Shown here piece by piece: positions 4,293 to 24,188 of a stretch of 27,361 bases of DNA. Location of the stretch: contig JASMDC010000046.1 of NCBI GenBank assembly GCA_030753015.1, positions 1 through 27,361 on the forward strand, given 5' to 3'. Every line of letters starts with the position of its first letter. Within the stretch, counting starts at the first letter, position 1. Source of the DNA: Candidatus Undinarchaeales archaeon. GTDB lineage: Archaea; SpSt-1190; JASMDC01. The notes beneath the pieces were generated by a model. It worked only from the letters and a program-made list of their open reading frames with translations. It searched no databases and was not told the DNA's origin. The position numbers were made by a program, and so were the translations under genes.

Positions 4293-4382
4293 ATGGCAGG
4301 ATTCTCCTGGGCTTGGAACACCCTGGAGGAAAGGGGACATAGGGGGTACGAGAGTTGTACGAACTTAGCGAGAGCACTATAG
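4293..4382 (+). other. Short leaderless ORF overlapping the caspase-like gene start (uORF or frameshifted 5' end)
   Basis: A 29-codon frame (starting MAGFSWAWNTLEERGHRG) begins at an ATG placed exactly where this genome puts leaderless starts after a TATA box. It runs 40 bases past the point where the caspase frame opens (4343) and stops at 4380-4382. The run of five G at 4342-4346 lies where the two frames meet: adding one base there, or a -1 ribosomal slip on the GGG codon, joins this ORF directly to the caspase frame. It could therefore be the true N-terminus of the caspase-like protein, a translated upstream ORF, or an assembly artefact. Confidence 0.5.
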
Positions 4383-5425
4383 AGAGCGAGGAAGGGGCCG
4401 GGGAAAAGTATGCCGTCCTCATCTGTGGGATGGCGGACAGTTCTTCCTTCTACAACAACATATCCTTCGTCCACGACATGCTGCTGGAGAAGGGGTACAA
4501 GGAAGAGAACATCACCGTTCTCTACGACAAGGGCGATGATCCGGAGTCGTTCGACACGGTCCGGGCCCAGGGGGAGTCCAAGGAGGGGCCGGCGCGGTAC
4601 GTACCAGCATCCACATACGGCTTCTCTCCGCGGGAGGAGGGTATCGTGGACGGTGCAGCAGACCGCGAGACCATGACCAAGGTGTTCGCCGAGCTCGGCG
4701 AGAAGGTCACCGAGCGTGACGAGCTGTTCGTGTACGTCACGGACCACGGGGGACGCGTCGGCTCGGGACACAAGGCCGAGAGCACCATCGTTGTCACCGA
4801 TCCGGTGAAGGACGCCGAAAAGAGCTCTGAGGAAGGGAGCAATGCGTACCCACTCACCGTCGGATTCGAGCCGGAGTACACCAAGGCCGACGAGGACGAG
4901 GACACTCCACCCGATCCCGAGCAGCTGGAGGATCAGTACGGGGACCTCACGGAAGAGGAGCTCCTGTCCATGTTCTACGGTACCGACATCTACGGGTTCG
5001 AGGGCTTCGGCAGCTTCGATAACTACGACGAGATCACCGAGTCCGAGTTCGCCCAGATGATCAAGCCCATCAAGGCCAAGAGCGAGATCCTGGTGTTCGA
5101 CCAGTGCCACTCCGGCGGTTTTGCTGACCGCTTCGGCAGGGGCAACCGTGTGGCCGTCTCGGCGTGCCGCGCCAACGAGTCGTCCTACATCTCCCACCCG
5201 ATGGACGGATTTCCGGCGACGTTCTTCGGCGCGCTCCGGGGACGTGACTACGACGGCAACGCGATCGACGCGGACCTCAACGGCGACGGCAAGATATCCA
5301 TCAAGGAGGCCTACCAGTACGCGCTCGAGAACGATGAGTTCGCCAACGGCGATGACGGGTGGTTCACCGAGCACCCGCTGCTCATCGCACGGAACCGCGA
5401 CGCTGACGAGGCGTTCATCGATTAG
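4355..5425 (+). CDS. Caspase-like (C13/C14, clan CD) cysteine peptidase with EF-hand
   Basis: This is a clan CD cysteine-peptidase fold protein of 356 residues. The domain starts with KYAVLICGMAD (residues 18-28). The catalytic dyad is visible as His131 in YVTDHGG, after a hydrophobic strand, and Cys251 in LVFDQCHSGG. Between them lies an acidic insertion (about 177-205). A canonical EF-hand loop, DLNGDGKISIKE (307-318), has Asp/Asn ligands at positions 1, 3 and 5 and the Glu at position 12; the FDNYDEITESEF segment at 221-232 may be a degenerate second site. There is no signal peptide or membrane segment, so it is predicted cytoplasmic unless the N-terminus differs. As read, the frame is closed by a TAG at 4340 and the only start is the TTG at 4355 with a G-rich sequence before it. 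A 5' frameshift is likely (see findings). Its tail overlaps the convergent membrane gene. Confidence 0.82.
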   Translation: MYELSESTIESEEGAGEKYAVLICGMADSSSFYNNISFVHDMLLEKGYKEENITVLYDKGDDPESFDTVRAQGESKEGPARYVPASTYGFSPREEGIVDGAADRETMTKVFAELGEKVTERDELFVYVTDHGGRVGSGHKAESTIVVTDPVKDAEKSSEEGSNAYPLTVGFEPEYTKADEDEDTPPDPEQLEDQYGDLTEEELLSMFYGTDIYGFEGFGSFDNYDEITESEFAQMIKPIKAKSEILVFDQCHSGGFADRFGRGNRVAVSACRANESSYISHPMDGFPATFFGALRGRDYDGNAIDADLNGDGKISIKEAYQYALENDEFANGDDGWFTEHPLLIARNRDADEAFID

Positions 5426-6794: not shown

Positions 6795-7685
6795 TCAGAG
6801 CCGGTCGAAGATCTGACACTTGAGCGCGATAGCGGTGCTGAGGCTATGTCCTTCGAACATAACGGAGCGGACGATGTTCTGGATGTAGAACCGGGAGGCG
6901 GCGTTGGGCGTCTGCACCGTAAGGCCGTCCATGATGGTCGTGCGCTCGTCATAGGGGTCGATGGTGCACTTGCGCCGTTCGGCCTCCTTGCCCACTAGAC
7001 GTGCGAGCTCGCTGATGTTCACGAACACCATGGCGACCACCTTGCCCCCTTTCACGAGGCGGCGGGCCTTGGGCCATAGCCAACGCGTGTAGGGGCGCTC
7101 GATACCCAGGTCCTTGTCCATCCCGATGGTCAGTGATGATGGCAGCCACAGGTCACGGATCCCGACCTCTCGCTCCAGGCGCTCGGTGGCCTGTTCGAGG
7201 GGCTCGCCGGCCGGGATGCACGCGATGAACATCCCCGGTTCGGGCCGTGCGTAGGCGGCCGAACCCTGCTGCCGACAGCGGAGGACCGTGCGGGCTACTT
7301 TCCGTCGCGGACGGAGCAGCTCGTCGCGGAGCGGGAGGTCCAAGGTCATCCGGAAGGAGCGGCCACCAGCGAGCTTCTTGTCGAGCACCTCGTTCTGCAC
7401 GTTCTCTCCCAGGCGAGGAACGATGTGGATCACGGTCCCCTCGTTACTTGCGCTGAAGATGGCATGGGGTACCGGAGGGGTTTCGCGCCTCGTGAAACTG
7501 AGCCGGGCCCGCATCTCCGTCGGCGTGTCCGCAGCGACGTCCCAGTACACGTCAACGACATACCCCTGTTCCTCCAGTCCCTGACGGATGGAGTCGAGGT
7601 TCTGGTTGACGGCCGGGAGCAGTGGCGGTATATTGAGCAGCAGCTGCGAGCTCGTGATCTGCTCATCGGTCCCGCTCATGGTCAT
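6795..7685 (-). CDS. Unrecognised soluble protein
   Basis: I do not recognise this 296-residue protein. It has no signal peptide or transmembrane helix and looks like a mixed alpha/beta cytoplasmic protein. Visible landmarks are an N-terminal helical segment (SSQLLLNIPPLLPAVNQN), an internal basic stretch (RDELLRPRRKVARTVLRCR) and a C-terminal region with KCTIDPYDERTTIMDGL and a hydrophobic NIVRSVMFEGHSL segment. I chose the ATG at 7685 because an AGGAGG site lies five bases upstream and a TATA (7718-7727, minus strand) sits further back, giving one of the few leadered messages here. The ATG at 7679 is an equally acceptable start. It is divergent from the first member of the tandem two-TM family; whether they work together is unknown. 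Confidence 0.7.
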   Translation of the reverse strand: MTMSGTDEQITSSQLLLNIPPLLPAVNQNLDSIRQGLEEQGYVVDVYWDVAADTPTEMRARLSFTRRETPPVPHAIFSASNEGTVIHIVPRLGENVQNEVLDKKLAGGRSFRMTLDLPLRDELLRPRRKVARTVLRCRQQGSAAYARPEPGMFIACIPAGEPLEQATERLEREVGIRDLWLPSSLTIGMDKDLGIERPYTRWLWPKARRLVKGGKVVAMVFVNISELARLVGKEAERRKCTIDPYDERTTIMDGLTVQTPNAASRFYIQNIVRSVMFEGHSLSTAIALKCQIFDRL

Positions 7686-7717
7686 GTGCCCTCCTGTGCA
7701 CGGTGTGGCCCCGTTCG

Positions 7718-7727
7718 CATTTAACGT
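7718..7727 (-). promoter_or_regulatory. TATA box and short leader for the gene at 6795-7685
   Basis: Minus-strand ACGTTAAATG is followed by AGGAGG just upstream of the ATG at 7685. The TATA centre is about 37 nt from the start, leaving room for a leader of about 10 nt that contains the Shine-Dalgarno site. Confidence 0.55.
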
Positions 7728-7762
7728 TTTCGCCCAAGGCCGCCTCTTCACTGTCGAAGCCA

Positions 7763-7774
7763 TTATATTGGTTG
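7763..7774 (+). promoter_or_regulatory. Promoter of tandem paralogue 1
   Basis: TTATATTGGTTG is a TATA box followed by an ATTGGT extension that recurs before all three paralogues. The A of ATTGG (7767) is exactly 25 nt before the ATG at 7792, so the message is predicted to be leaderless. Confidence 0.7.
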
Positions 7775-7791
7775 CTGTCCATAAGGATGTC

Positions 7792-8490
7792 ATGACCGAT
7801 GTGCCTTGGTACGTGGACAACTATCAGGTGTTCATCCTCATCGTGCTCCTCACGATCGGGTACGGGGCCGTCGACATCATGAACGCCACGGAACGTGAGC
7901 CCGCCGGATCTACCTGGGAGGAGCGCAACGCCGACCGCCTGGAACTAATGGAGACCGCCACGACCGATGAGCTCATCGAGCTCTTGAAGGAGGACGAGAA
8001 CGATCCGCACCCGGGTTTCGAGAAGAAGTCACGGGAAATGTCCGCAGACGATGTAAAGCTGTTCGGCGGTTTAATCGTCATCATCCTCTCCTACAGCTGG
8101 TTCAAGACCTTCCAGCGGTTCAAGGAGGTCGTCGACGCCCTCGGCCCGCAGCTGGCCGTTGTGGAGGTGGTGAAGTTCATGCGTAACACCAGCCTCCACT
8201 GCACGACGCATGACGGCAGGGCCTTCTACCTCTACTACTTCGGCGGTGCAAAGCACTCTCGTGCCTACTACGAGCTGTGGATCGACACCATGACGATGCC
8301 CGATATCACGGGTGCCGAGCAGTACATAGCTGCCATCGACCATCTCGATTCGATCCTTGCGCTCCCTGGGGACACCGAGGGCAGCTGGAAGCTCACGGCC
8401 CGTCTGTCCGACGAGTGGTTCACTTCCGAGACGCCAGACATCCTCAAGACGCTGGACGCCCTCTACGCGCTGAGGGACCGGCGGCGGTGA
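7792..8490 (+). CDS. Tandem two-TM family protein, copy 1
   Basis: This is the first of three adjacent paralogues of a family I do not recognise (232 residues). It starts MTDVPWYVDNYQ, then has a transmembrane helix (about 12-30), an acidic charged insertion (about 31-85) unique to this copy, a second helix (about 89-104) ending in SWFKTFQRF, and a C-terminal cytoplasmic-type domain. That domain carries the family signature: LHCTT, DGRAFYLYYFGGAKH, AYYELWID, HLDSI, LSDEWF and ILKTLDALYALRD. An in-frame frame extends upstream to 7588, but only the ATG at 7792 fits the promoter and aligns with the N-termini of copies 2 and 3. The conserved Cys, aromatic cluster and basic residues suggest a folded sensor or binding domain rather than a known enzyme. 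Confidence 0.75.
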   Translation: MTDVPWYVDNYQVFILIVLLTIGYGAVDIMNATEREPAGSTWEERNADRLELMETATTDELIELLKEDENDPHPGFEKKSREMSADDVKLFGGLIVIILSYSWFKTFQRFKEVVDALGPQLAVVEVVKFMRNTSLHCTTHDGRAFYLYYFGGAKHSRAYYELWIDTMTMPDITGAEQYIAAIDHLDSILALPGDTEGSWKLTARLSDEWFTSETPDILKTLDALYALRDRRR

Positions 8491-8511
8491 CGGCCGGGTC
8501 CGGCTCATTTA

Positions 8512-8522
8512 TTTATTGGTAG
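8512..8522 (+). promoter_or_regulatory. Promoter of tandem paralogue 2
   Basis: TTTATTGGTAG follows further AT-rich sequence (ATTTA). The A of ATTGG (8515) is 25 nt before the ATG at 8540, the same geometry as copies 1 and 3. Confidence 0.7.
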
Positions 8523-8539
8523 CCGTGTTCACGGTGAAC

Positions 8540-9136
8540 ATGGTCGAAGCTCCTTGGTACGTGGAGAACTACCGGGCGTTCCTTCTTGCGTCGCTCCTGG
8601 CGGTCGTGCTCTTTCTGGCACCGATGTTCCCCTGGATGTTCACACCGTACATGGACGACTGGATCGATCTTGTGGAGGACGCTGACGAACCAGGGTTCTT
8701 CATGGTCATGGCGTTAATACCGGGGATACTCGGGTACTCCTATTTCAAGACCTTCCAGCGGTACTGGGAGGTGGTCGAGGCCCTGGGCGACCGTCTGGTG
8801 TCAGTGGAGGTGATCGGCTTCATGCGTCACACGAGCCTCCATTGCACGACCTACGACGGCAGGTCGTTCTATCTCTACTACTTCGGCGGGGCCAAGCACA
8901 TGCCCGCTTACTACAAACTATCGATCGACCTGCCCGGCAAGCTGCCGCGGTTCGACTCCACGCCGCACGTGGAGGCCATCTACCACTTGAAGAGTATCGA
9001 GGTCGAGTACGGTGACGAGGAGGGACAGGACAAGCTCGTTGCCAAGTTGTCCGACCAGTGGTTCGTGTCGGAGACGAAGGACATCCTAAACTCGCTTGAC
9101 GCGCTCCACAAGATACGTGACGAGAAGCGGAAGTAG
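8540..9136 (+). CDS. Tandem two-TM family protein, copy 2
   Basis: This second paralogue (198 residues) is clearly the closest relative of copy 1. It begins MVEAPWYVENYRAF and has two hydrophobic segments (about 12-35 and 53-70). It then repeats the SYFKTFQRYWEVVEALG, LHCTT, DGRSFYLYYFGGAKH, LSDQWFVSETKDIL and LDALHKIRD blocks, nearly matching copy 1. Unlike copy 1, the loop between the helices is short. It ends in a basic tail (RDEKRK). The ATG at 8540 is preferred over an upstream GTG and TTG because it fits both the promoter spacing and the N-terminal alignment with the other copies. It has its own promoter rather than sharing an operon with copy 1. Function unknown. Confidence 0.75.
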   Translation: MVEAPWYVENYRAFLLASLLAVVLFLAPMFPWMFTPYMDDWIDLVEDADEPGFFMVMALIPGILGYSYFKTFQRYWEVVEALGDRLVSVEVIGFMRHTSLHCTTYDGRSFYLYYFGGAKHMPAYYKLSIDLPGKLPRFDSTPHVEAIYHLKSIEVEYGDEEGQDKLVAKLSDQWFVSETKDILNSLDALHKIRDEKRK

Positions 9137-9156
9137 TCCGGCCGGTGCCGTAGCTA

Positions 9157-9167
9157 TTTATTGGTTG
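9157..9167 (+). promoter_or_regulatory. Promoter of tandem paralogue 3
   Basis: TTTATTGGTTG repeats the element before copies 1 and 2. The A of ATTGG (9160) is 25 nt before the ATG at 9185. Confidence 0.7.
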
Positions 9168-9184
9168 TACCGCACAGAGGATGC

Positions 9185-9775
9185 ATGCCGGAGATCCCCG
9201 TGCACATCGAGCGGTACCAGCAGTTCCTGGCAGTTGGGATCATCGTGGGGCTCATCGTCGTGAGCGTGTACTTCCATGAACGACTCCCCTGGGGTGACAC
9301 TGTCAAGGACCTCTTCCCGACAGATACTCGTGCAGCACTGATAGCTCACATAGCTCTCATTGTGATTGGCCTCACCAGCCTCGCTCTGGCGCTCACGGGC
9401 GAGCGGTTCGTCTGGGCGCTCGACGCCCTTGCCACTCGCCTGGGTACGGCCGAGGTCCACGGCTCAATGTGGAGCGGGATCCTCCGTTGCACGACCCCCG
9501 ACGGAAGGAGCTACTTCCTGTATTACTATCCTGGCAGAAAGCACACTCGCGCCTACTACGAGCTCTGGCTGGAGCTACTGACCGAGCTCGAAGACCTCGA
9601 TTCCGGCGAGCATATCACGGCCATCGACCATCTGGAGAGCATAGCCGTGCGGCCGGGGGATGGCGGAGGCCCGGCGAGACTGGTCGCACACCTCAACGAG
9701 AGCGCAACGTCGACGGACGCTCTTCCCAGAACCCTGGACGCGCTGTTCGAGCTCAGGGACCACAGGCGACAGTGA
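9185..9775 (+). CDS. Tandem two-TM family protein, copy 3
   Basis: This third, most divergent paralogue has 196 residues. It begins MPEIPVHIERYQQFLA, then has a first helix (about 14-30), a loop and a second helix (about 51-70). The C-terminal domain keeps the family landmarks LRCTT, DGRSYFLYYYPGRKH, RAYYELWLEL, AIDHLESI and TLDALFELRD, but SDxWF has become NESAT and the KTFQR block is lost. The conserved Cys and the Tyr cluster persist, so those are the best candidates for the functional core. The ATG at 9185 fits the promoter and the family alignment; an upstream TTG frame (9161) would put the promoter inside the gene. Confidence 0.73.
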   Translation: MPEIPVHIERYQQFLAVGIIVGLIVVSVYFHERLPWGDTVKDLFPTDTRAALIAHIALIVIGLTSLALALTGERFVWALDALATRLGTAEVHGSMWSGILRCTTPDGRSYFLYYYPGRKHTRAYYELWLELLTELEDLDSGEHITAIDHLESIAVRPGDGGGPARLVAHLNESATSTDALPRTLDALFELRDHRRQ

Positions 9776-15059: not shown

Positions 15060-16913
15060 TCAGGTGTCCTGCCAGCAGTTTCCGTCCAGACCGCACTCCG
15101 CATCCTGGGGACAGCCACACACCTGGCATGCGGGTACGAGCCCCCGTTCTCGTACGCAAAGGAACGGCTTCACTGCGGAGCATGAGCCGTGGTTGGTTCC
15201 ATCGTCACATATCTGGTCCGGATCGTAGCACCGATCGTCGGAGTAGCACCCCATGCCGTCCGGACAGCCGCAGAGGGCGCAGTCGGGGATGAGCGATGGT
15301 TTGTCCGGCTCGCAGTAGTTACCGCCGCCGGCCGCACAGGTGCCCGCTGGTGTACCGTCCGCGCATGACTCGTACGGGTAGGGAAGGAACCAGCCACGGA
15401 TGCCCCCGGCGTCGTCCATGGTCCCCGATGCACGGGCCGTGGTCTCGATGAACCTGCTTGCCCCGTCGCTGAACGTGACGTGGAGGAGGACGTGGTTGAT
15501 GGTGCGTGGCGCGGACAGGCTGTCCGAGTCGACGTAGGCGAACTGCAGGTGCATCCCGTACGACGCGTGCCCGTTACCTGCCATGACGAGCGCGGCCATG
15601 AGCACCGCCGAGTCACGGCAGCTCCCCCGTCCCTCAGTGAGGGTCTCCAGTGGCCACTGGGCCGTTTCGTTGGTGACCTGGTAGATCATGAGCCGGTTCT
15701 TGAGGTTGTACACCTCGTCGATGAACTGTCGTGCCGTCCGGCCATCGGTCAGGTCGCCGATCACGTCGGTGAACGCCTCCGGCCGCACGAAGGTGCGGTA
15801 GTCCGGCGTGGTGAGGTTCTCCTCCGTGCAACCAGGGCAGGAGATGGGCCGGTAGTACACGGGTCGGGGCGCCGATACCAGGGTGCGGTAGGTGTCCACG
15901 GGCATGTTCCACACCACGGTCTCCCCGCGATTGTCGGGGTACTGCCAACGGATCGTCCCCTCGTTGATGACAGTGTGGAATCCCTCGGGCGACGTCGTCT
16001 GTGGCCGTTCGACGCAGTACGAGCGGTCGGTGTCGCACGCATGGTCCGGCGGGCAGTCCGCATCCGTCCGGCAGCACAGTGTCCCCGCAAGGCAGCACAC
16101 CCCTCCTGCACAGTTACCGCTCGCGCACTCGCCCGATGCATTACAGTCGCCACCATTGGGCACGTGCGTGACGGTCGGGGACGGTGAGGGTGTGGATGAC
16201 GGTCCGGTCCCGTCCCCCGTACAGGCCGACTCGGCATGGTCGCACGCCATCCCTCCGGGACAGTCGCGGTCATCCTGGCAGCATGTCCTGCCCACGGTAC
16301 AGCACACGCCGTTGATACAGTTGTCGCTGAGGCACTCATCGTCCACGGTGCACGGCATGCCGTTGAGCCGCGTGGCCTCAGGTACCGTCCCCCCGCTCCC
16401 CGGTGTAGGTACCTGACTGGTGCCTGCCACGCAGTAATAACGGTCCGTGTCGCACTGCTCCTCCGGGCCGCAGTCCCGGTCATCGAGACAGCATGCATTG
16501 CCTTCGAGGCAGCACACTCCGGCCCCGCAGTTACCGCTGAGGCACATGTGGTCCCCGTCGCACATCATGCCGTTGCGGCGCGGTGCTTGGGTGGGTGAAG
16601 ATGTGGGTGCTGGTGTTTGCGAGGGTGTCGGGAGTGGGATGCAGAAGGACCGGTCGGTATCGCAGCGATCCCCATCGTCACAGTCACGGTCGGTGCTGCA
16701 ACAGTCCCTCCCGAGCAGGCAGCATATGCCGTTCCGGCAGTTGCCGCCGAGGCACTCCATATCATCGGAACAGGGCTCGCCGATCCCGGACAATGGCGGT
16801 GCTGCTATGGGTAGCGTGGTGGGTGCAGGGCCCGTGTCGGTCTGCTCACCGACGCAACCCGATATGAGGACGAGTGCGAGGACGAGCGCCGCGACCATCC
16901 GTCCCGGGACCAT
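15060..16913 (-). CDS. Cysteine-rich lipoprotein with transglutaminase-like domain
   Basis: This 617-residue secreted protein begins with a signal peptide and a lipobox-like LISGC (Cys20), predicting lipid anchoring to the membrane. Four cysteine-rich modules follow (about residues 41-320), each with ten cysteines in one spacing (C-x5-C-x4-C-x4-CC-x5-CC-x5-C-x5-C-x6-C), joined by Thr/Ser/Pro linkers. A transglutaminase-like domain follows: Cys432 in GRGSCRDSA, His474 in TINHVLLHV and Glu490 in RFIETT, where the family normally has Asp. The C-terminal part holds further Cys clusters. The ATG at 16913 is 27 nt from a weak TATA (16935-16944); the longer frame starting at 16934 would include that TATA. 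The function is unknown: a surface peptidase, an adhesion scaffold or a redox-stable envelope protein are all possible. It implies an oxidative folding environment outside the membrane. Confidence 0.8.
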   Translation of the reverse strand: MVPGRMVAALVLALVLISGCVGEQTDTGPAPTTLPIAAPPLSGIGEPCSDDMECLGGNCRNGICCLLGRDCCSTDRDCDDGDRCDTDRSFCIPLPTPSQTPAPTSSPTQAPRRNGMMCDGDHMCLSGNCGAGVCCLEGNACCLDDRDCGPEEQCDTDRYYCVAGTSQVPTPGSGGTVPEATRLNGMPCTVDDECLSDNCINGVCCTVGRTCCQDDRDCPGGMACDHAESACTGDGTGPSSTPSPSPTVTHVPNGGDCNASGECASGNCAGGVCCLAGTLCCRTDADCPPDHACDTDRSYCVERPQTTSPEGFHTVINEGTIRWQYPDNRGETVVWNMPVDTYRTLVSAPRPVYYRPISCPGCTEENLTTPDYRTFVRPEAFTDVIGDLTDGRTARQFIDEVYNLKNRLMIYQVTNETAQWPLETLTEGRGSCRDSAVLMAALVMAGNGHASYGMHLQFAYVDSDSLSAPRTINHVLLHVTFSDGASRFIETTARASGTMDDAGGIRGWFLPYPYESCADGTPAGTCAAGGGNYCEPDKPSLIPDCALCGCPDGMGCYSDDRCYDPDQICDDGTNHGSCSAVKPFLCVRERGLVPACQVCGCPQDAECGLDGNCWQDT

Positions 16914-16934
16914 AAGAAGACAGGTGGCGCCCAA

Positions 16935-16944
16935 AGATTATCTA
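16935..16944 (-). promoter_or_regulatory. Weak TATA box of the cysteine-rich lipoprotein gene
   Basis: Minus-strand TAGATAATCT is centred 27 nt from the ATG at 16913. Its 5' bases include the TAG stop codon of the marker protein 11 gene, so the promoter is embedded at the end of the upstream gene. Confidence 0.45.
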
Positions 16945-17925
16945 CCTATCGATAACGGGGACGGTCACAGCATCGCGCCATCGCCGGTGGTAGGCGAGCG
17001 CCGCCATGGCACCGATGCACCCGCGCCTGCCCGTGACCGGTTCAAGGCCGACGGAGGGAAGGGTCGCGGCCGTGCTGAACGTGTCATCAATGCTCACCAC
17101 AGCTCCCCTTGCGGCCCGACCGAAGAACGAGAGCGCTGGTGGGACGTCCCGGCCATGGAGCCAGGCCAGCCCCGTGTGCTCGGACAGGGTCCACTTCTCC
17201 AGGAGGTGGCGGGCCCTTCGCAGGAGAGCGTCACGTCCGTCCGTTGGTACGGCGAGCGTGATCGCGGTGGCCACGCAGTTGCGCGTTCGGTGTGGGGCGC
17301 TGGGGTAGAGCTGGGCGAGAGCGTGGTAGAGATAGTCTCCCAGTCCACCTTCCTGGAGCGCGGTCCCGAGGGTGTGACACAGGGACCACGTGGATCCCTC
17401 GTCCTCGGTGTCCGTGTCGTCGACACCCAGTACGACCTTCTCCCGGAGCGGGAGCACGACCGTGGCAGAGCTCTTTCGTGAGCCTCCCGGGGGTTCGTGG
17501 ACCACGATGCGCAGCACACCCTTGGCGAGCCCGCGGGAGATACATGCCCCGACCCCACCTCCGCCGAGACCGTGGTACGTGACACGCACCTCATCGGCCT
17601 CCCGGTCCACGACCACAGCACCGATACCCGCGGGGCGGAGGCCAGGTACCAGTTCTGGCTCGACATCACCGGTACACAGGTCATAGATGGCGAGCGTCCC
17701 CTCACGTTGCGCGCTGGTGACCAGCTTACTGGCGGCCGGGTAGTGGTGGCCTGTCCATGCAGCACCGCCGAGGCAGCTGCCCTCCTCTACGAGCTCGACG
17801 AACGTGGGATCCGCTGGATCGACCGTGGCAGTGATCCGCTTCGTGGAGGTCGCCCAGGGGACGTCCGCTACCAGGGAACGCAGCTCCGAGGGCAGGTGCT
17901 CACCGGGTGACAGCTCCAGCGCCAT
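16942..17925 (-). CDS. mmp11: Methanogenesis marker protein 11
   Basis: This 327-residue protein carries the family hallmark LGVDDTDTEDEGSTW (about 166-180), along with HRTRNCVATAITLAVP and the C-terminal RRGCIGAMAALAYH segments. The family (TIGR03280-type) is confined to methanogens and relatives, and no biochemical role is established. The DDTD motif resembles the nucleotide-binding motif of tRNA-Ile2 agmatinylcytidine synthetase (TiaS), so a nucleotide- or RNA-linked activity is possible, but the TiaS zinc and TCK-like domains are missing. The ATG at 17925 is 27 nt from the TATA centre at 17952; the frame remains open far upstream because GC-rich sequence seldom has stops. The gene is divergent from mtxX and shares its promoter element. 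Confidence 0.8.
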   Translation of the reverse strand: MALELSPGEHLPSELRSLVADVPWATSTKRITATVDPADPTFVELVEEGSCLGGAAWTGHHYPAASKLVTSAQREGTLAIYDLCTGDVEPELVPGLRPAGIGAVVVDREADEVRVTYHGLGGGGVGACISRGLAKGVLRIVVHEPPGGSRKSSATVVLPLREKVVLGVDDTDTEDEGSTWSLCHTLGTALQEGGLGDYLYHALAQLYPSAPHRTRNCVATAITLAVPTDGRDALLRRARHLLEKWTLSEHTGLAWLHGRDVPPALSFFGRAARGAVVSIDDTFSTAATLPSVGLEPVTGRRGCIGAMAALAYHRRWRDAVTVPVIDR

Positions 17926-17943
17926 GGCACCGACGCCGCTGAC

Positions 17944-17956
17944 AAGCTTAATAAAC
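17944..17956. promoter_or_regulatory. Shared bidirectional TATA box, mmp11 / mtxX operon
   Basis: The element AAGCTTAATAAAC (17944-17956) is almost identical to the one between rtcA and the SerA-like gene. Its centre, 17952, is exactly 27 nt from both the mmp11 ATG (17925, minus) and the mtxX ATG (17979, plus). Confidence 0.72.
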
Positions 17957-17978
17957 CATGCGCCCGGTGGTGGAGGGT

Positions 17979-18827
17979 ATGGGGGCCACCGTGTGGGAGG
18001 CGGTCGTGGCCATGGCACGGGAAAGACCGTCCAAGGTGGCGCTTGGCATGCGTCCCGGTGTGTCCCCTGATGATGACGCCTTCCTTGCCGACGCTGAGCG
18101 GTTCCGATCAGAGGGTTTCGGTTGCCCGATCGTCGTGACGCTCCCCGGTGTGCAGGTCCCCGGCGAACTGGACGTGATCGAGGCCAAGGATCCCGAGCGT
18201 GAGCTCGTCCGCCTGCTGGCCGACGGCGAGGTGGATGCTGCCGTCCGCGGTGCCCTGGACGCCGCAACGACCCTGGGGCACCTGAAGCGCGCCTTCAACG
18301 TCCCTTCGCTCTGTCGTATCGCCCTCCTTCGTGCTGCGAACGGGCAGGAGTTCTTCCTCGCGCCCGTGGGCGTGGTGGAGGGTGCTGCAATGGTCGACCG
18401 TCTCGAGCTCGTGCGACGGTTCACCGAACTGGCCGCACTCCTTGGGATCGAGCCCAAGATATCGGTGCTCGCCGAGGGCAGGATGGAGGACCGTGGGCGA
18501 GGCCGAACCGTGGAGGAGAGCCTTCACGAGGCCGAGCTCATCACGAAGCTGGCCCGGGACCGTCTCGGAGTGACGGACGTCCGGATGACGGGCATCGTCA
18601 TCGAGGAGGCCTTGGAGGACGGACCTCGTCTCGTGCTGGCGCCGAGCGGACCTACCGGCAATCTAGTGTTCCGGAGCCTCGTGTACCTGGGCGCAGGGGA
18701 AGCTCTGGGTGCCCCCGCCTGCTCCCTCCGCCGTCCCTTCGTGGACGTGTCCCGTGGTCGAACGGACGTGCTCAATGCCATGGTCTTCGCGTCCGCGATG
18801 GTGGCCGGGGGATGGGATAATGGGTGA
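17979..18827 (+). CDS. mtxX: Methanogenesis marker protein 4, MtxX-type
   Basis: This 282-residue protein shows the fold of the phosphate acetyl/butyryltransferase family. Conserved segments include KVALGMRPGVS near the start, DAAVRGALDAATTLGHLKRAF (split here) and the C-terminal LVLAPSGPTGN and FVDVSRGRTDVLNAMVFAS. It matches the MtxX/marker 4 family (TIGR03270-type), which is annotated as a methyltransferase but has no firmly proven reaction. Its position as the first gene of the coenzyme B-type operon suggests a role in cofactor metabolism. The ATG at 17979 is chosen for the TATA; the alternative ATG at 17958 would overlap that TATA. Its stop codon overlaps the start of the ThDP enzyme gene by eight bases. 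Confidence 0.82.
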   Translation: MGATVWEAVVAMARERPSKVALGMRPGVSPDDDAFLADAERFRSEGFGCPIVVTLPGVQVPGELDVIEAKDPERELVRLLADGEVDAAVRGALDAATTLGHLKRAFNVPSLCRIALLRAANGQEFFLAPVGVVEGAAMVDRLELVRRFTELAALLGIEPKISVLAEGRMEDRGRGRTVEESLHEAELITKLARDRLGVTDVRMTGIVIEEALEDGPRLVLAPSGPTGNLVFRSLVYLGAGEALGAPACSLRRPFVDVSRGRTDVLNAMVFASAMVAGGWDNG

Positions 18828-20346
18828 TCTGGCCCACGCGCTGGCCGACACACTGGCCGCGCTCGGCTCCCGTCGATGCATGTGCAACCCTGGCCAGGAC
18901 GTCGTTGCCGTTATCGATGCCCTGGAGGGCAGTATGGGGACTACCATGTTCCCAACAGAAGTGGGGGCAGGATTCGCCGCTGACGGGTATCGTCGTGTGG
19001 ACCCGCGGGGGACGGACCTTCCCGTGTGCGTCGTGACCGGCAAGGCCGGTGCCGCACACCTCGCCCTCCCGCTCGAGAACGCGTTCGCCGACGGAGTCGG
19101 GATGCTCGCAGTGACGGGCAGGTGCACCGTGGAGCTTGCGACGGTGAGCGTGGCAAACGTCGACATCGGCGATAACACCAGCAAGGGCCTTCCTGAAGTG
19201 GTGAACGCCTTCGAGCTCGCATGTACGCCACCGCAGGGTCCGGCGCTCGTCACGCTCGACCGTACGGCCCAGTACGGACCGGCCGAAGCAGCGCCCCGTG
19301 AGCTTACCTTCGGGCATCGCGATCCCTCTCCGCGCGATGTGGAACAGGCCACGGACATCATCGCGAGCGCCGAACGACCGCTCATCCTCCTGGGCACTGG
19401 CTGCCTGTCAGGGGACGTGGAGGGCCTGCGCGAGGCCGTGACGGCCATCGGGATCCCCTGTGTGACCTCGATGCCTGCGCGGGGTGTCGTGGACGAGGAG
19501 CTCGAGCAGTGCCTCGGTCCTGCCGGTATGCGCGGCAAGGCAGCAGCGAACGACGCCCTGCGCGGGGCCGACGCTGTCCTCGCCGCTGGCTGCTCACTCT
19601 CTCATCTGACGGTCCCCGTCGGTGCACTGGACGGCACGCGTGTGTTCCGGGTGGACGTACGTGGGCAGGCCGATGCCGATACGGATGCTGCGGCCTTCGT
19701 CACAGCGACCCTACACGCCGTCGATGAGCGTGAGCCGTGGGTCCGGGCCGATGGACCGCTCGTGTACGAGGGTTCGTTCGCGGCACCGGTCGCGGTATCG
19801 TCGATCATGGACACCCTCCGCCCCGGCGACTGCCACGTCTATGATGTGGGGGCGTTCTCCATGTGGGCGTGTGCTGCCGGCACCGTCCGTGAGCCGGGAT
19901 CCTTCCTCATGCCCCATAACGTGTACCCGCTCGGGTACGCCGTCCCGGGGGCCATCGGCGCCCTCATGCGCGGGACACGAGAAAGGATCGTGGCCGTGTG
20001 CGGCGATGGAGGTTTTGTCGCATCGCTGGCCACCCTCCCTATGGCCGCTGAGCACGACATCACGATCGTGGTGCTCGATGACGGGGGGATGGACATCATC
20101 CGCCAGCGGCAGGTCGAGCGAGGGCTCTCCACTTTGACCTCGCACCTACCCCGGACCGATCCCGTGGCGTTAGCGCGTGGCTGTGGCATCGAGTCCGTGC
20201 GTGTCGACCGTCGCGAGGACCTTGTGGCCCAGCTCGAGGGTGCGGGCCGCGGAGCGCTCCTAGTACACTGTCGGCTGGAGCGGGGCCCCAGGATCCTGGG
20301 CGCTCTGGATGGCAACAATTTTAAAGTCAGGGATGGTTCGGGATGA
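18820..20346 (+). CDS. Three-domain ThDP-dependent enzyme, acetolactate synthase-like; candidate 2-oxosuberate decarboxylase
   Basis: This 508-residue protein is a thiamine-diphosphate enzyme of the IlvB-like, three-domain type: a PYR domain (about 1-165) with the catalytic Glu47 in TEVGAG, a middle domain (about 170-320) and a PP domain (about 330-500). The Mg-ThDP motif begins with GDG at 395-397. The paired Asn of the usual motif is Asp420-Asp421 here, followed by GGMDII. The PYR domain begins MGDLAHALADTLAALG. The middle domain argues against sulfopyruvate decarboxylase (ComDE), which lacks it. Acetolactate synthase is possible, but no regulatory subunit lies alongside. Its place between mtxX and aksA-aksF makes non-oxidative decarboxylation of 2-oxosuberate to 7-oxoheptanoate, in coenzyme B synthesis, an attractive role; this is inference. 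Confidence 0.75.
   Translation: MGDLAHALADTLAALGSRRCMCNPGQDVVAVIDALEGSMGTTMFPTEVGAGFAADGYRRVDPRGTDLPVCVVTGKAGAAHLALPLENAFADGVGMLAVTGRCTVELATVSVANVDIGDNTSKGLPEVVNAFELACTPPQGPALVTLDRTAQYGPAEAAPRELTFGHRDPSPRDVEQATDIIASAERPLILLGTGCLSGDVEGLREAVTAIGIPCVTSMPARGVVDEELEQCLGPAGMRGKAAANDALRGADAVLAAGCSLSHLTVPVGALDGTRVFRVDVRGQADADTDAAAFVTATLHAVDEREPWVRADGPLVYEGSFAAPVAVSSIMDTLRPGDCHVYDVGAFSMWACAAGTVREPGSFLMPHNVYPLGYAVPGAIGALMRGTRERIVAVCGDGGFVASLATLPMAAEHDITIVVLDDGGMDIIRQRQVERGLSTLTSHLPRTDPVALARGCGIESVRVDRREDLVAQLEGAGRGALLVHCRLERGPRILGALDGNNFKVRDGSG
20316..20326 (+). promoter_or_regulatory. Internal TATA-like element before the radical SAM gene
   Basis: CAATTTTAAAG inside the end of the ThDP gene is centred 26 nt before the GTG at 20348. 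It could start a shorter leaderless transcript for the radical SAM-aksA-aksF part of the operon. Confidence 0.45.
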
Positions 20347-20347
20347 C

Positions 20348-21358
20348 GTGGTCGGTCACATCCTGCAGCTGAAAGCAGAGCTCCTCGCTGATGGCCGGGT
20401 CCGCCTTCATCCGGGCGTTTCCACGATCGGCATCATCTCCGCCCCAACCGCAGGACCGGCAGCGGGCGAGTCTACCGTGTTCATCCGCCTTGACGGCTCC
20501 CGGGTGCGCCTCAGGCTCGACGACCATGCACGTGTGGCCCTGACGGCCGAGGGGACGCTCGAGCGTGACGGTGAGGTCATCGCCACCGGTGTCAAGCTTG
20601 AGCCCGTTGTGGCACACTGCCCGGAACAGGTGTACACGACCGTGGTCCCAGGATGTATCCACAAATGTGCATTCTGCGCCCTTTCGGGGCACGTAGCTGC
20701 CGCCCGCTCCGAGGAGATAATTATTTCACGTATCGAGCATGCATTCAAGTCATCGGTGGTTGTCCCCGTGGCGCTCACGTCCGGTGTGTCACCCGACGGT
20801 TCCGAGCTGGACCTCTGCGTGAGAGTCGTGAATCGCATCAAGGACAAATGGCGCGTGGTCCCGGTCGGAGTGTCGATCTGCATCAAGGACAAGAAGGACC
20901 TCGAGCGGCTCCTTGAGGCCGGGTGCGACGAGATCAAGATCAACCTCGAGGTGGCCGATCCGGACATCCTTCGCAAGGTGTGCCCCCATAAGGACCGGGA
21001 CGCCATCATCGCTCTCATGAAGGAGGCCGTTGAGATGTTCGGCCGGGGCAGAGTGTGCTCCAATATCATCCTCGGCCTCGGGGAGAGCGATCAGGCCGTG
21101 CTGGACACCATGAAAGAGCTTGCAGCAATAGGGGTCGTGGCCAACCTGCGACCGTTGGAGGTGACGCTGGCCGTTGAGCCCGCCCTGGAGCGTGCTCTGG
21201 GGATCGGGGGTTTCGCTCGACCGCAGGCCGACCGGCTCATCCGGCTGGCAGAGGCGCAGTGCAAGATCCTCGCCAAGCACCGTCTTTCGGCCTCCGGTAT
21301 GGACACGATGTGCTCGGCATGCACGGGGTGTGACCTGGCTCCTGGAGAGGACCTGTGA
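20348..21358 (+). CDS. Radical SAM protein with C-terminal CxxCxxC
   Basis: This 336-residue protein has the radical SAM cluster motif CIHKCAFC (C103, C107, C110 from the GTG start). It starts with a short N-terminal domain carrying RVRLHPG and FIRLDGSRVRLRLDD. Later landmarks are the TSGVSPDGSEL segment, EIKINLEVADPD and ILGLGESDQ, as in class A radical SAM barrels. A C-terminal CSACTGC (C322, C325, C328) could bind an auxiliary Fe-S cluster or be a zinc knuckle. The GTG at 20348 is one base after the preceding stop and 26 nt from an internal TATA; an upstream ATG at 20333 would overlap the ThDP gene. Its reaction is unknown. Location between the ThDP enzyme and aksA suggests coenzyme biosynthesis, and a sulfur-insertion role is possible. 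Confidence 0.75.
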   Translation: MVGHILQLKAELLADGRVRLHPGVSTIGIISAPTAGPAAGESTVFIRLDGSRVRLRLDDHARVALTAEGTLERDGEVIATGVKLEPVVAHCPEQVYTTVVPGCIHKCAFCALSGHVAAARSEEIIISRIEHAFKSSVVVPVALTSGVSPDGSELDLCVRVVNRIKDKWRVVPVGVSICIKDKKDLERLLEAGCDEIKINLEVADPDILRKVCPHKDRDAIIALMKEAVEMFGRGRVCSNIILGLGESDQAVLDTMKELAAIGVVANLRPLEVTLAVEPALERALGIGGFARPQADRLIRLAEAQCKILAKHRLSASGMDTMCSACTGCDLAPGEDL

Positions 21359-21370
21359 GGTGACCGGGGC

Positions 21371-22543
21371 GTGGTGCGCGAGCTGACGGACGTGGGAGCG
21401 GCATCACTGTACGCACAAAGGATACGACTGAAGGGGCCGATCGAGCTCTACGATTCAACTCTCCGGGACGGCGAGCAGACCCCTGGCGTGTGCTTCACCC
21501 CTGACGAGAAGGAGGCGATCGCGCGCGAGCTCGACGCAGTGGGCGTACCCATCATCGAGGCCGGATTCCCTGTGGTATCGCCCAAGGAGGCCGAGGGCGT
21601 CAGGCGGATCGTGGCTGCTGGACTCGACGCGCGGCTAGTGGCGCTCTCGCGACTCAGGGATGAGGACATCGACGTCGCCGTGGACTGCGGTGTGGATGGC
21701 GTGCTCCTCTTCATCGCGAGCTCGGACGTCCATCTCGACCACAAGCTCCACATGGACCGGGAACAAGTACTGGAGGCCGTCGCCTCTAAGGTTGCCTATG
21801 CTCGCGACCGTGGGCTCCGTGTCCAGTTCACTCCCGAGGACGCGTCCCGGACAGATCCTGCATTCCTCAAAGAAGTGCTCGCCACTGCCGAGTGGGCGGG
21901 TGCCGAGCGTGTGGGCGTGGCCGATACCGTGGGTATCCTCGATCCGGCAGCGACCAGACGGCTGGTGCGTACGGCCATGGAGGCCGTGAAGGTACCGGTC
22001 TCCGTCCACCTCCACAATGACCTGGGTCTGGCGACCGCGAACACCCTTGCAGCCTTCGAGGAGGGGGTCGTGGCCGCTGCCGTGACGGTGAACGGCATCG
22101 GCGAGCGTGCCGGAAACGCCTCCCTGGAAGAGGTCGCTGCGTCGCTGGCCGTCCACTACGGGTACGACTGCGGCATCGACCTCTCCCGACTCACAGAGCT
22201 ATCCGAGCTCGTCTCCCATCTCACGGGCATACCCGTACCAGGCAACAAGGCGGTGGTCGGCCCCAATACGTTCACCCACGAGTCCGGTATCCATGTGGCC
22301 GCAGTACTGGAGGAGCCTGCCACCTACGAACCGTTCCCAGCTGAGCTCGTGGGAGGGCGGCGCAACCTTGTGTTCGGCAAACACAGCGGACGGAAGGCCG
22401 TGCGCCACCTCCTTCGGAAGGAGGGTCTCGCTCATGGTCCCGATGCCGTCGGTCGCGTGCTGGCACTGCTCAAGGACGTGGAGGGGCCGTTGACCCATCG
22501 GGAGCTGATTGTGCTGACAAGGGACGGGGGTACGATGCAGTGA
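21371..22543 (+). CDS. aksA: Homocitrate synthase-type 2-oxoacid elongase (AksA)
   Basis: AksA condenses acetyl-CoA with 2-oxoglutarate, 2-oxoadipate and 2-oxopimelate in the elongation pathway to 2-oxosuberate, a coenzyme B precursor. The 390-residue sequence has the signature YDSTLRDGEQTPG with Arg32 and Asp33, the metal-binding His213 and His215 in VHLHNDLG, and GIGERAGNASLEEVA. Length excludes the C-terminal regulatory LeuA domain, matching AksA or NifV rather than 2-isopropylmalate synthase, although citramalate synthase cannot be excluded. The GTG at 21371 has GAGGTGA seven bases upstream, beginning in the radical SAM stop codon, and the gene overlaps aksF by four bases (GTGA). That placement next to a dehydrogenase of the same pathway strengthens the assignment. 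Confidence 0.85.
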   Translation: MVRELTDVGAASLYAQRIRLKGPIELYDSTLRDGEQTPGVCFTPDEKEAIARELDAVGVPIIEAGFPVVSPKEAEGVRRIVAAGLDARLVALSRLRDEDIDVAVDCGVDGVLLFIASSDVHLDHKLHMDREQVLEAVASKVAYARDRGLRVQFTPEDASRTDPAFLKEVLATAEWAGAERVGVADTVGILDPAATRRLVRTAMEAVKVPVSVHLHNDLGLATANTLAAFEEGVVAAAVTVNGIGERAGNASLEEVAASLAVHYGYDCGIDLSRLTELSELVSHLTGIPVPGNKAVVGPNTFTHESGIHVAAVLEEPATYEPFPAELVGGRRNLVFGKHSGRKAVRHLLRKEGLAHGPDAVGRVLALLKDVEGPLTHRELIVLTRDGGTMQ

Positions 22544-23544
22544 CCATACCTCTCGTGGTGGTCCGTGGCGATGGTGTGGGGCCCGAGGTCGTTGACGCGG
22601 CCCTTGCGGCAGCATCCCCCCTTCTGGACGGCTTCGAGCTCGTGGAGGCCCGGATGGGGTTGACATGCTACCGGGAGACTGGGAGCGCGCTGCCCGCGGA
22701 CACGCTCGAGATGCTACGGGACGGAGGGCTCGCCCTCCTTGGCGCGGTCCAGACCCCGCCCAACGCCCATTACAGCTCGCCATTGTTACGTATGCGACGG
22801 GAGCTCGACCTGTTCGCCAACCTGCGCCCGGTCCGCGACCTCCGTGGCGGGCCCGTCGACCTGGTGGTCGTGCGGGAGAACCTCGAGTGCCTGTATGCCG
22901 GTCTCGAAGGCGGTAATGAGGACACTGCCCTGGCGATCCGCGTGATCACACGACAGAATTGCGAGAGGATATCGCGGTTCGCTCTGGAGCTCGCTCGTGA
23001 CCGGTCGGAGGATCACCGGAAGGTGACCTGCGTGCACAAGGCCAACGTACTGGCCCAGACCTGCGGTCTCTTCCGAGACACCTTCACCAGGGTGTCCGGG
23101 GACTACCCGGACGTGCCCGTGGACGAGCTCCATGCGGATGTGTGCGCCATGCGGATGGTCATGGATCCAGGCTCCATGGACGTTCTTGTCACCACCAACA
23201 TGTTCGGTGACATCCTCTCCGACCTGGCCGCGGGACTGGTCGGCGGCCTTGGCACGGTGCCCTCGGGCAACATCGGCGAGCGATGCGCGGTGTTCGAGCC
23301 CGTCCACGGTGCCGCACCAGACATCGCTGGGAAGGGTGTGGCCAATCCGGCCGCCGCCATCCTCTCGCTCGCCATGCTGCTCGAGCATGCGGGGGACATT
23401 GACGGTGGTCGCCGCCTCTCCCGCGCGGTCGAGTCGTGCGTGCTCGCAGGGGAGACCACACCGGACCTTGGCGGGTCCCTTGGCACCGACGCGGTCGCTA
23501 GGGCGGTCCTGCATCGGCTGGAGACCGATACGGTGGAGGGATGA
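22540..23544 (+). CDS. aksF: Homoisocitrate/isopropylmalate dehydrogenase family protein (AksF)
   Basis: AksF oxidatively decarboxylates homoisocitrate and its longer homologues, using NAD(P), after AksA and the AksDE isomerase. The 334-residue sequence begins [17 protein letters not shown]. It has the substrate site [11 protein letters not shown], the [13 protein letters not shown] segment, the acidic metal ligands in [21 protein letters not shown] (split) and the signature [14 protein letters not shown] with [19 protein letters not shown]. It shares its start with the aksA stop codon (GTGA overlap), so the two enzymes are translationally coupled. A LeuB-type 3-isopropylmalate dehydrogenase is possible in principle, but no leu genes are nearby. 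The aksD and aksE isomerase genes are not in this window. Confidence 0.85.
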
Positions 23545-24188
23545 GGTTGCGCTGGAACGCTCACGTGATGCTCGCGCTGTGCGGACTTCCTGTCATGGCA
23601 CGCCTCCTGCCCGGCTTCGACCTGTTGGCGGACGGGTTTGTGGCCGCCGTAACGCTCTGTCTGGCCGCCATGCTCCCCGACTTCGACCGGGTGGAGGGGC
23701 TGGACCAGGTTCCCGGCTACCTAACGGGCGTCTGGCGACGCACTCTGGCAGGATGCGTGGTGCTCTATCCCCTGTTCCTCGTAGCCCGTTACATGAATGG
23801 CTGGCGCCCTGTCACACCGGACCTGGGGCTCATGCTGCTGCTCTTGGTCCTGGTCGTGGCCTCGTTCGTGGTGCTTGCCATCGCGTTCGCGCTCCTCACA
23901 CGCCTGCTCGGCCTCGCCCATCGGAAGCTACTCCATTCCCTCGTGCTACCGGTCACTGGCGCTGCTGCTGCCATGATTGAGGGCATTCCCATCATAGTCC
24001 CTGTAGCGTTCGTTCTTGGTTTCGGTTCCCATGCACTGGCCGACGCGCTCACACCGTCCGGTGTGTACCCGTTCTATCCCCTCTCGACCCGCCGGATCTC
24101 CCTGGACGTCGTACGCACCGGCGGGTGGGGCGAGCGCTCCTTCTTGGTCGTGTTCTTCATCACGTTCGTGGCCCTGAGTATATTCTAG
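23541..24188 (+). CDS. DUF457/YdjM-type membrane metal-dependent hydrolase
   Basis: This 215-residue integral membrane protein ends the operon. Conserved elements of the membrane metal-hydrolase family are visible: an N-terminal [25 protein letters not shown] and, near the end, [21 protein letters not shown]. The His and Asp residues lie at the ends of the hydrophobic helices, consistent with a metal site at the membrane interface. Four or five transmembrane helices are apparent. The ATG overlaps the aksF stop by four bases (ATGA), which makes it part of the message. Its link to coenzyme B synthesis is unclear and may be only positional. Confidence 0.78.

Follow-up and report, generated by a model that had tools for sequence, protein, structure and literature searches.

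Coenzyme B is required by methane-producing and methane-oxidising archaea, and its chain is elongated by the Aks pathway (AksA, AksD/E and AksF). For the decarboxylation of 2-oxosuberate, no gene is named in the literature searched, in keeping with what a first-pass annotation of the DNA described here had stated, and a 2025 paper calls the coenzyme B pathway 'still unknown' (PMC12068725). The MJ0663 family (arCOG02000) of Methanococci was recognised in 2016 as an uncharacterised relative distinct from acetolactate synthase, in a paper that makes no mention of operons for it (PMC5311999).

The window analysed here, a stretch of 27,361 nucleotides, is contig JASMDC010000046.1 of a Candidatus Undinarchaeales archaeon (contig C58 of genome G000). 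Six open genes in series on its + strand form one operon (17958-24188) that includes genes for AksA- and AksF-like proteins and, at 18820..20346 (+), for a thiamine diphosphate (ThDP)-dependent enzyme of MJ0663/arCOG02000-like type, a candidate 2-oxosuberate decarboxylase. Judged from sequence comparison, this enzyme has about an even chance of decarboxylating the product of AksA and AksF, probably 2-oxosuberate. The first-pass annotation had proposed it as the missing 2-oxosuberate decarboxylase; the distinction from acetolactate synthase and the linkage of its family to aksD and aksF support this proposal in part, and the host, which may not make coenzyme B, does not.

Results and discussion

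Domains and substrate residues of the ThDP enzyme

Gene identities were assigned with profile hidden Markov models (HMMs; Pfam, NCBIfam) run on the window proteins. The ThDP protein matches Pfam TPP_N, TPP_M and TPP_C, all above cut-off, and is thus a three-domain enzyme whose middle domain sets it apart from ComDE, as had been predicted. Its top NCBIfam scores are to models of acetohydroxyacid synthase (AHAS, acetolactate synthase), at 141 bits, far under every AHAS cut-off. The catalytic Glu and the ThDP Asp are retained in the alignment; at the aligned columns the window protein has N, L and R in place of AHAS Lys256, Arg377 and Trp574 (Arabidopsis numbering), which are conserved in 31 of 31 archaeal AHAS. 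Ketol-acid reductoisomerase (KARI/IlvC, PF01450) is not detected in the host genome and is detected in 14 of 14 control genomes. The loss of the substrate residues, together with the lack of IlvC in the genome, indicates that the window protein is not an AHAS. The other ThDP genes of the host resemble, by sequence reading, IolD, IorA and short ferredoxin-oxidoreductase beta subunits, so that the window gene appears to be the only AHAS-like gene of the host.

The predicted model of the protein (mean predicted local distance difference test score, pLDDT, 79) displays an AHAS-like fold with a VIA Z of ~37. Nearly the same degree of similarity is found to AHAS, pyruvate oxidase, benzaldehyde lyase and glyoxylate carboligase, and the fold, as modelled, leaves the substrate of the protein unfixed.

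The MJ0663-like family and its linkage to aks genes

In the trees the window protein is placed outside the AHAS clade (support 100/99), in a set termed ThDP' here, which also holds one extra ThDP gene each from f12, f24/f44 and f5/f36/f79/f87 genomes; support for the groupings that contain the window protein (67/85 and 65/88) is weak for its exact position. From their lineage and length we infer that the f24/f44 members are orthologous to MJ0663. An Arg at window positions 220 and 237 is present in 25 of 25 ThDP' sequences (window included) and in none of 31 AHAS, a signature defined from the present alignment itself. AHAS carries Lys (26/31) and never Arg at position 220, and His at position 237 (31/31); three other ThDP proteins do not carry both Arg residues. 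A single-protein scan of genome contigs returned no relative.

The ThDP' family occurs in class I-type methanogen genomes. Its gene lies within ~2 kb of a HacA_Meth/AksD gene in G163 and G181 (817 and 830 bits, cut-off 550), of an AksF_Meth gene in G129 (634 bits, cut-off 500) and of an AksF homologue in G080, so that aksD or aksF is a close neighbour in four genomes, which represent three families. The distance to aksA/aksD is 20-47 kb in f12 genomes and in several of the f36 type. A comparison of gene neighbourhoods across methanogens, as the first-pass annotation had suggested, finds aksD or aksF nearby in these four genomes and the family itself missing from class II-type genomes. As a candidate function, the one proposed in the first-pass annotation is a good one, and both the independent linkage and the putative active-site signature add to its strength.

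At L124-L129, in f5, f36 and f87-type genomes, the neighbour of ThDP' is a gene of ~650 aa, acetyl-CoA synthetase-like where tested (L124).

A second gene set: the radical SAM protein and DUF7714

About half of the sampled methanogen families are without ThDP', and most of them have instead the window-type radical S-adenosylmethionine (SAM) protein and DUF7714 (XcbA family), which co-occur almost without exception. The radical SAM protein of the operon (20309..21358, +; start 20309 or 20333; PF04055) has full-length relatives in f29, f35, f58 and f82 genomes and, by name, in Methanosarcinales, Methanomassiliicoccales, Methanothrix, ANME and Hydrothermarchaeum. It shows LipS2/BioB-type homology, and its C-terminal TMCxxCxxC motif is invariant in 12 sequences; its clade has 100/100 support. 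Among 41 genomes, 11 have both DUF7714 and the window-type radical SAM protein, 1 has DUF7714 only and 29 have neither. ThDP' and the window-type radical SAM protein are mutually exclusive except in G000, which has both sets; its DUF7714 homologue is encoded away from the operon, at C34:34420-35271.

In L243:1202-9105 the class II-type radical SAM gene has as its neighbour a complete aksA/aksD/aksE/aksF set, in which DUF7714 comes directly after aksF. Several loci of Methanomassiliicoccaceae type have AksA, DUF7714 or both at a distance of a few kb from the radical SAM gene, and mmp11, radical SAM and DUF7714 genes are adjacent in Hydrothermarchaeum. The DUF7714 family has invariant Cys residues in the alignment, and its AlphaFold model (pLDDT 94) finds no convincing match in the PDB (Foldseek query-normalised template-modelling score < 0.3; VIA Z at most 5.8). 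It is probable that 2-oxosuberate decarboxylation has been solved differently in the class II-type lineages.

Weak radical SAM matches in G164, G098, G188, G101 and G138 were rejected as members of the window clade, as they fall in a related MSMEG_0568-type clade. In G164 (L095/L056) the MSMEG_0568-type radical SAM, mmp11 and mtxX genes overlap in an unbroken series, and in the Archaeoglobaceae-like G098 (L094) and G188 (L097) mmp11 adjoins or overlaps the MSMEG_0568-type gene.

Organisation of the operon and other genes of the window

The tight packing of six genes described in the first-pass annotation is borne out by the open reading frames (ORFs) and by their spacing counted from the start codons. 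The first gene, mtxX/mmp4 (17958..18827, +; start 17958 or 17979), encodes a phosphotransacylase-like protein with a full-length match to TIGR03270 at 173.9 bits, just short of the cut-off of 190; its best PDB match is MTH_231 (9nzy), followed by the phosphotransacylases 1yco and 1r5j, which are weak. It overlaps the ThDP gene by 8 nt (ThDP ATG 18820; mtxX stop ending at 18827), and the latter overlaps the radical SAM gene by 14 or 38 nt depending on the start chosen. After a gap of 12 nt follows the aksA-like gene (21371..22543, +), whose product of 390 aa consists of HMGL-like and HCS_D2 domains only, and is hence a short 2-oxoacid chain-elongating synthase without the LeuA regulatory domain. 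None of the listed NCBIfam equivalogs reaches its cut-off with this protein, and its closest relatives are f12 AksA proteins (54-57%) located in aksA-aksD-aksE clusters.

The aksF-like gene (22540..23544, +; Iso_dh, homoisocitrate dehydrogenase family) overlaps aksA by 4 nt. Its matches to LEU3_arch (360.7 bits), AksF2_Meth (342.8 bits) and leuB (222.9 bits) are all below cut-off, and the NCBIfam AksF equivalogs are not reached (342.8 and 322.8 bits against cut-offs of 540 and 500). The gene identities first proposed accordingly hold at the family level, and not at the equivalog level for AksA and AksF; likewise, of the label 'coenzyme B operon', the gene cluster is seen, and the coenzyme B part is a reading of it. 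A YdjM-type membrane protein gene (23541..24188, +; PF04307, 41.5 bits > 29), overlapping aksF by 4 nt, closes the operon.

Divergent from mtxX is mmp11 (methanogenesis marker 11; 16942..17925, -; ATG 17925), which encodes a protein with the TiaS TCKD domain (Pfam TiaS_TCKD; TIGR03280, 267 bits > cut-off 255.8). The mmp11 and mtxX starts are 32-53 nt apart, and sequence reading places an AT-rich AAGCTTAATAAACC in the intergenic region (17926..17957), which is a possible shared promoter.

Elsewhere in the window, the products of three tandem genes (7588-9775) are paralogues with a common HCTT.DGR.F.LYY-like motif, the first without a Pfam match; a large Cys-rich protein, probably secreted and with several repeated Cys-rich blocks, is encoded at 15060-16934 (-); and, at 4355-5425, this archaeal DNA encodes a legumain-like protein of the Peptidase C13 family.

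Proposed mechanism

From homology, the AksA-like synthase and the AksF-like dehydrogenase, with AksD/E-like isomerases encoded outside the operon on C24 or C27 of the host genome, would elongate 2-oxoglutarate to a 2-oxo-dicarboxylic acid. The ThDP protein would then act as a non-oxidative 2-oxoacid decarboxylase, converting most likely 2-oxosuberate to 7-oxoheptanoate and CO2, with Arg220 and Arg237 presumably contacting the distal carboxylate. More speculatively, the radical SAM protein and the DUF7714/XcbA-like protein may add or reduce sulfur, a role suggested by the LipS2/BioB-type homology, the three-Cys motif, the part of XcbA in bacterial coenzyme M synthesis and the lack of COG1900. 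It may also be speculated that the phosphotransacylase-like MtxX and Mmp11, with its TiaS kinase-type domain, activate and couple the acyl chain. As Mcr, ComE and COG1900 are not detected, the route may lead to coenzyme B or else to a related thiol.

We consider it possible, though doubtful, that an archaeon in which no Mcr is detected retains here an operon for 2-oxoacid elongation, serving coenzyme B or a related thiol that would be new, and uniting two enzyme sets that are otherwise separate, the class I ThDP decarboxylase and the class II radical SAM/XcbA-like pair. If so, mtxX and mmp11 would be parts of cofactor assembly and not of Mcr maturation, which would change their Mcr-associated reading. 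Two assayable candidates also emerge: for the decarboxylation step of class I methanogens the MJ0663 family, and, tracking class II-type genomes, the radical SAM and DUF7714 pair.

The host genome and the weight of the evidence

The host genome is a metagenome-assembled genome (MAG) of 3.85 Mb, 98.9% complete, which branches first in a 100/100 clade of the rpoB tree, where the other sampled class members have 0.6-1.1 Mb. Several observations weigh against the proposed decarboxylase and its place in coenzyme B synthesis. McrA (PF02249) is not detected in this MAG, which bears on the need for coenzyme B; COG1900/HcyBio is not detected in the host genome either, and no ComE-like protein is among the domain matches listed for it. 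The window protein shares only 21-30% identity with its ThDP' homologues, on long branches, and the approximately unbiased (AU) test does not reject its union with AHAS (p 0.108). Class II-type genomes are without the family; the first-pass annotation had held that absence from most coenzyme B-producing methanogens would refute its proposal, and such absence is seen for about half. In f5/f36/f87-type genomes ThDP' retains AHAS-like residues, and in several of them it adjoins the acetyl-CoA synthetase-like gene and not aks. A naive binomial estimate for linkage in 4 of 19 gives p ~4e-4; it takes no account of relatedness and presupposes genomes of 1.5 Mb in which four aks genes are scattered, so that the linkage statistic is only suggestive.

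With McrA, KARI, ComE and COG1900 all undetectable, the host is probably not a methanogen and need not make coenzyme B. Methanogenesis markers can outlast the loss of Mcr (PMC9635834), and the Mcr-less archaeon Met12 has also lost aksA-F (PMC11176372).

The alternative that survives best, though still rather unlikely, is that the ThDP protein decarboxylates an elongated 2-oxo diacid and that the semialdehyde, in a host without Mcr, goes to another product, for instance to pimelate destined for biotin, or to a thiol cofactor that would be new. 7-Oxoheptanoate is identical to pimelate semialdehyde, neither McrA, ComE nor COG1900 is found in the host, and mmp11 adjoins the related radical SAM gene in G098 and G188, in which only long LeuA-type ORFs were found and which apparently lack a short AksA. 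However, the aks clusters that contain the closest AksA relatives belong to probable methanogens, mtxX, mmp11 and DUF7714 are otherwise methanogen-associated, and no biotin gene is present among the scanned window genes, the genome not having been searched for them. It is unlikely, too, that the protein is a carboligase or decarboxylase for an unrelated 2-oxoacid with an incidental operon position. Such a role would agree with the near-equal fold matches to four enzymes, with the fact that a fold does not determine the substrate and with the high divergence from all homologues, but not with the gene overlaps in an operon with AksA and AksF or the repeated occurrence of ThDP' near aks genes.

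An AHAS in a leucine/valine operon (IlvB-LeuA-LeuB), for which the best NCBIfam scores, the LeuA- and LeuB-like neighbours and the AU test speak, is highly improbable and was rejected on the missing KARI and the lost AHAS residues, the scores also being well below all AHAS cut-offs, the AksA-like synthase lacking the regulatory domain and the AHAS small subunit not being adjacent in the operon, as noted at first pass. Equally remote is a contig from another organism, to which the genome-wide absences would not apply: the contamination estimate of the MAG is 5.0%, but the GC content (0.636) and tetranucleotide profile (r 0.944 to pooled G000) agree with the other contigs of the bin.

Comparison with known systems

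The candidate 2-oxosuberate decarboxylase shares with the AHAS large subunit (IlvB) the overall fold, the catalytic Glu and the ThDP motif, but differs in the absence of K256, R377 and W574 equivalents, of KARI in the genome and of an adjacent small subunit. With ComDE, the sulfopyruvate decarboxylase, it would share the proposed type of reaction, in which an acidic 2-oxoacid is decarboxylated without oxidation and yields an aldehyde; unlike ComDE it is one three-domain chain with TPP_M, in a genome with no ComE-like domain listed. As for the XcbA family, G000 has a homologue on C34, and the family adjoins aksF in L243 and is near AksA in Methanomassiliicoccaceae, but the G000 copy, at 75 bits, is below the XcbA cut-off of 150. 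The locus has in common with the Aks pathway of coenzyme B the AksA- and AksF-like genes and a synthase without regulatory domain, whereas its genes remain below equivalog cut-offs and are set among mtxX, ThDP and radical SAM genes in a host without detectable McrA. With the MJ0663 family the window protein has in common the Arg220/Arg237 signature, the three-domain ThDP fold and the position as an extra to canonical AHAS; it is only 21-30% identical, and the window copy stands apart by its place in an operon with mtxX, the radical SAM gene, aksA and aksF.

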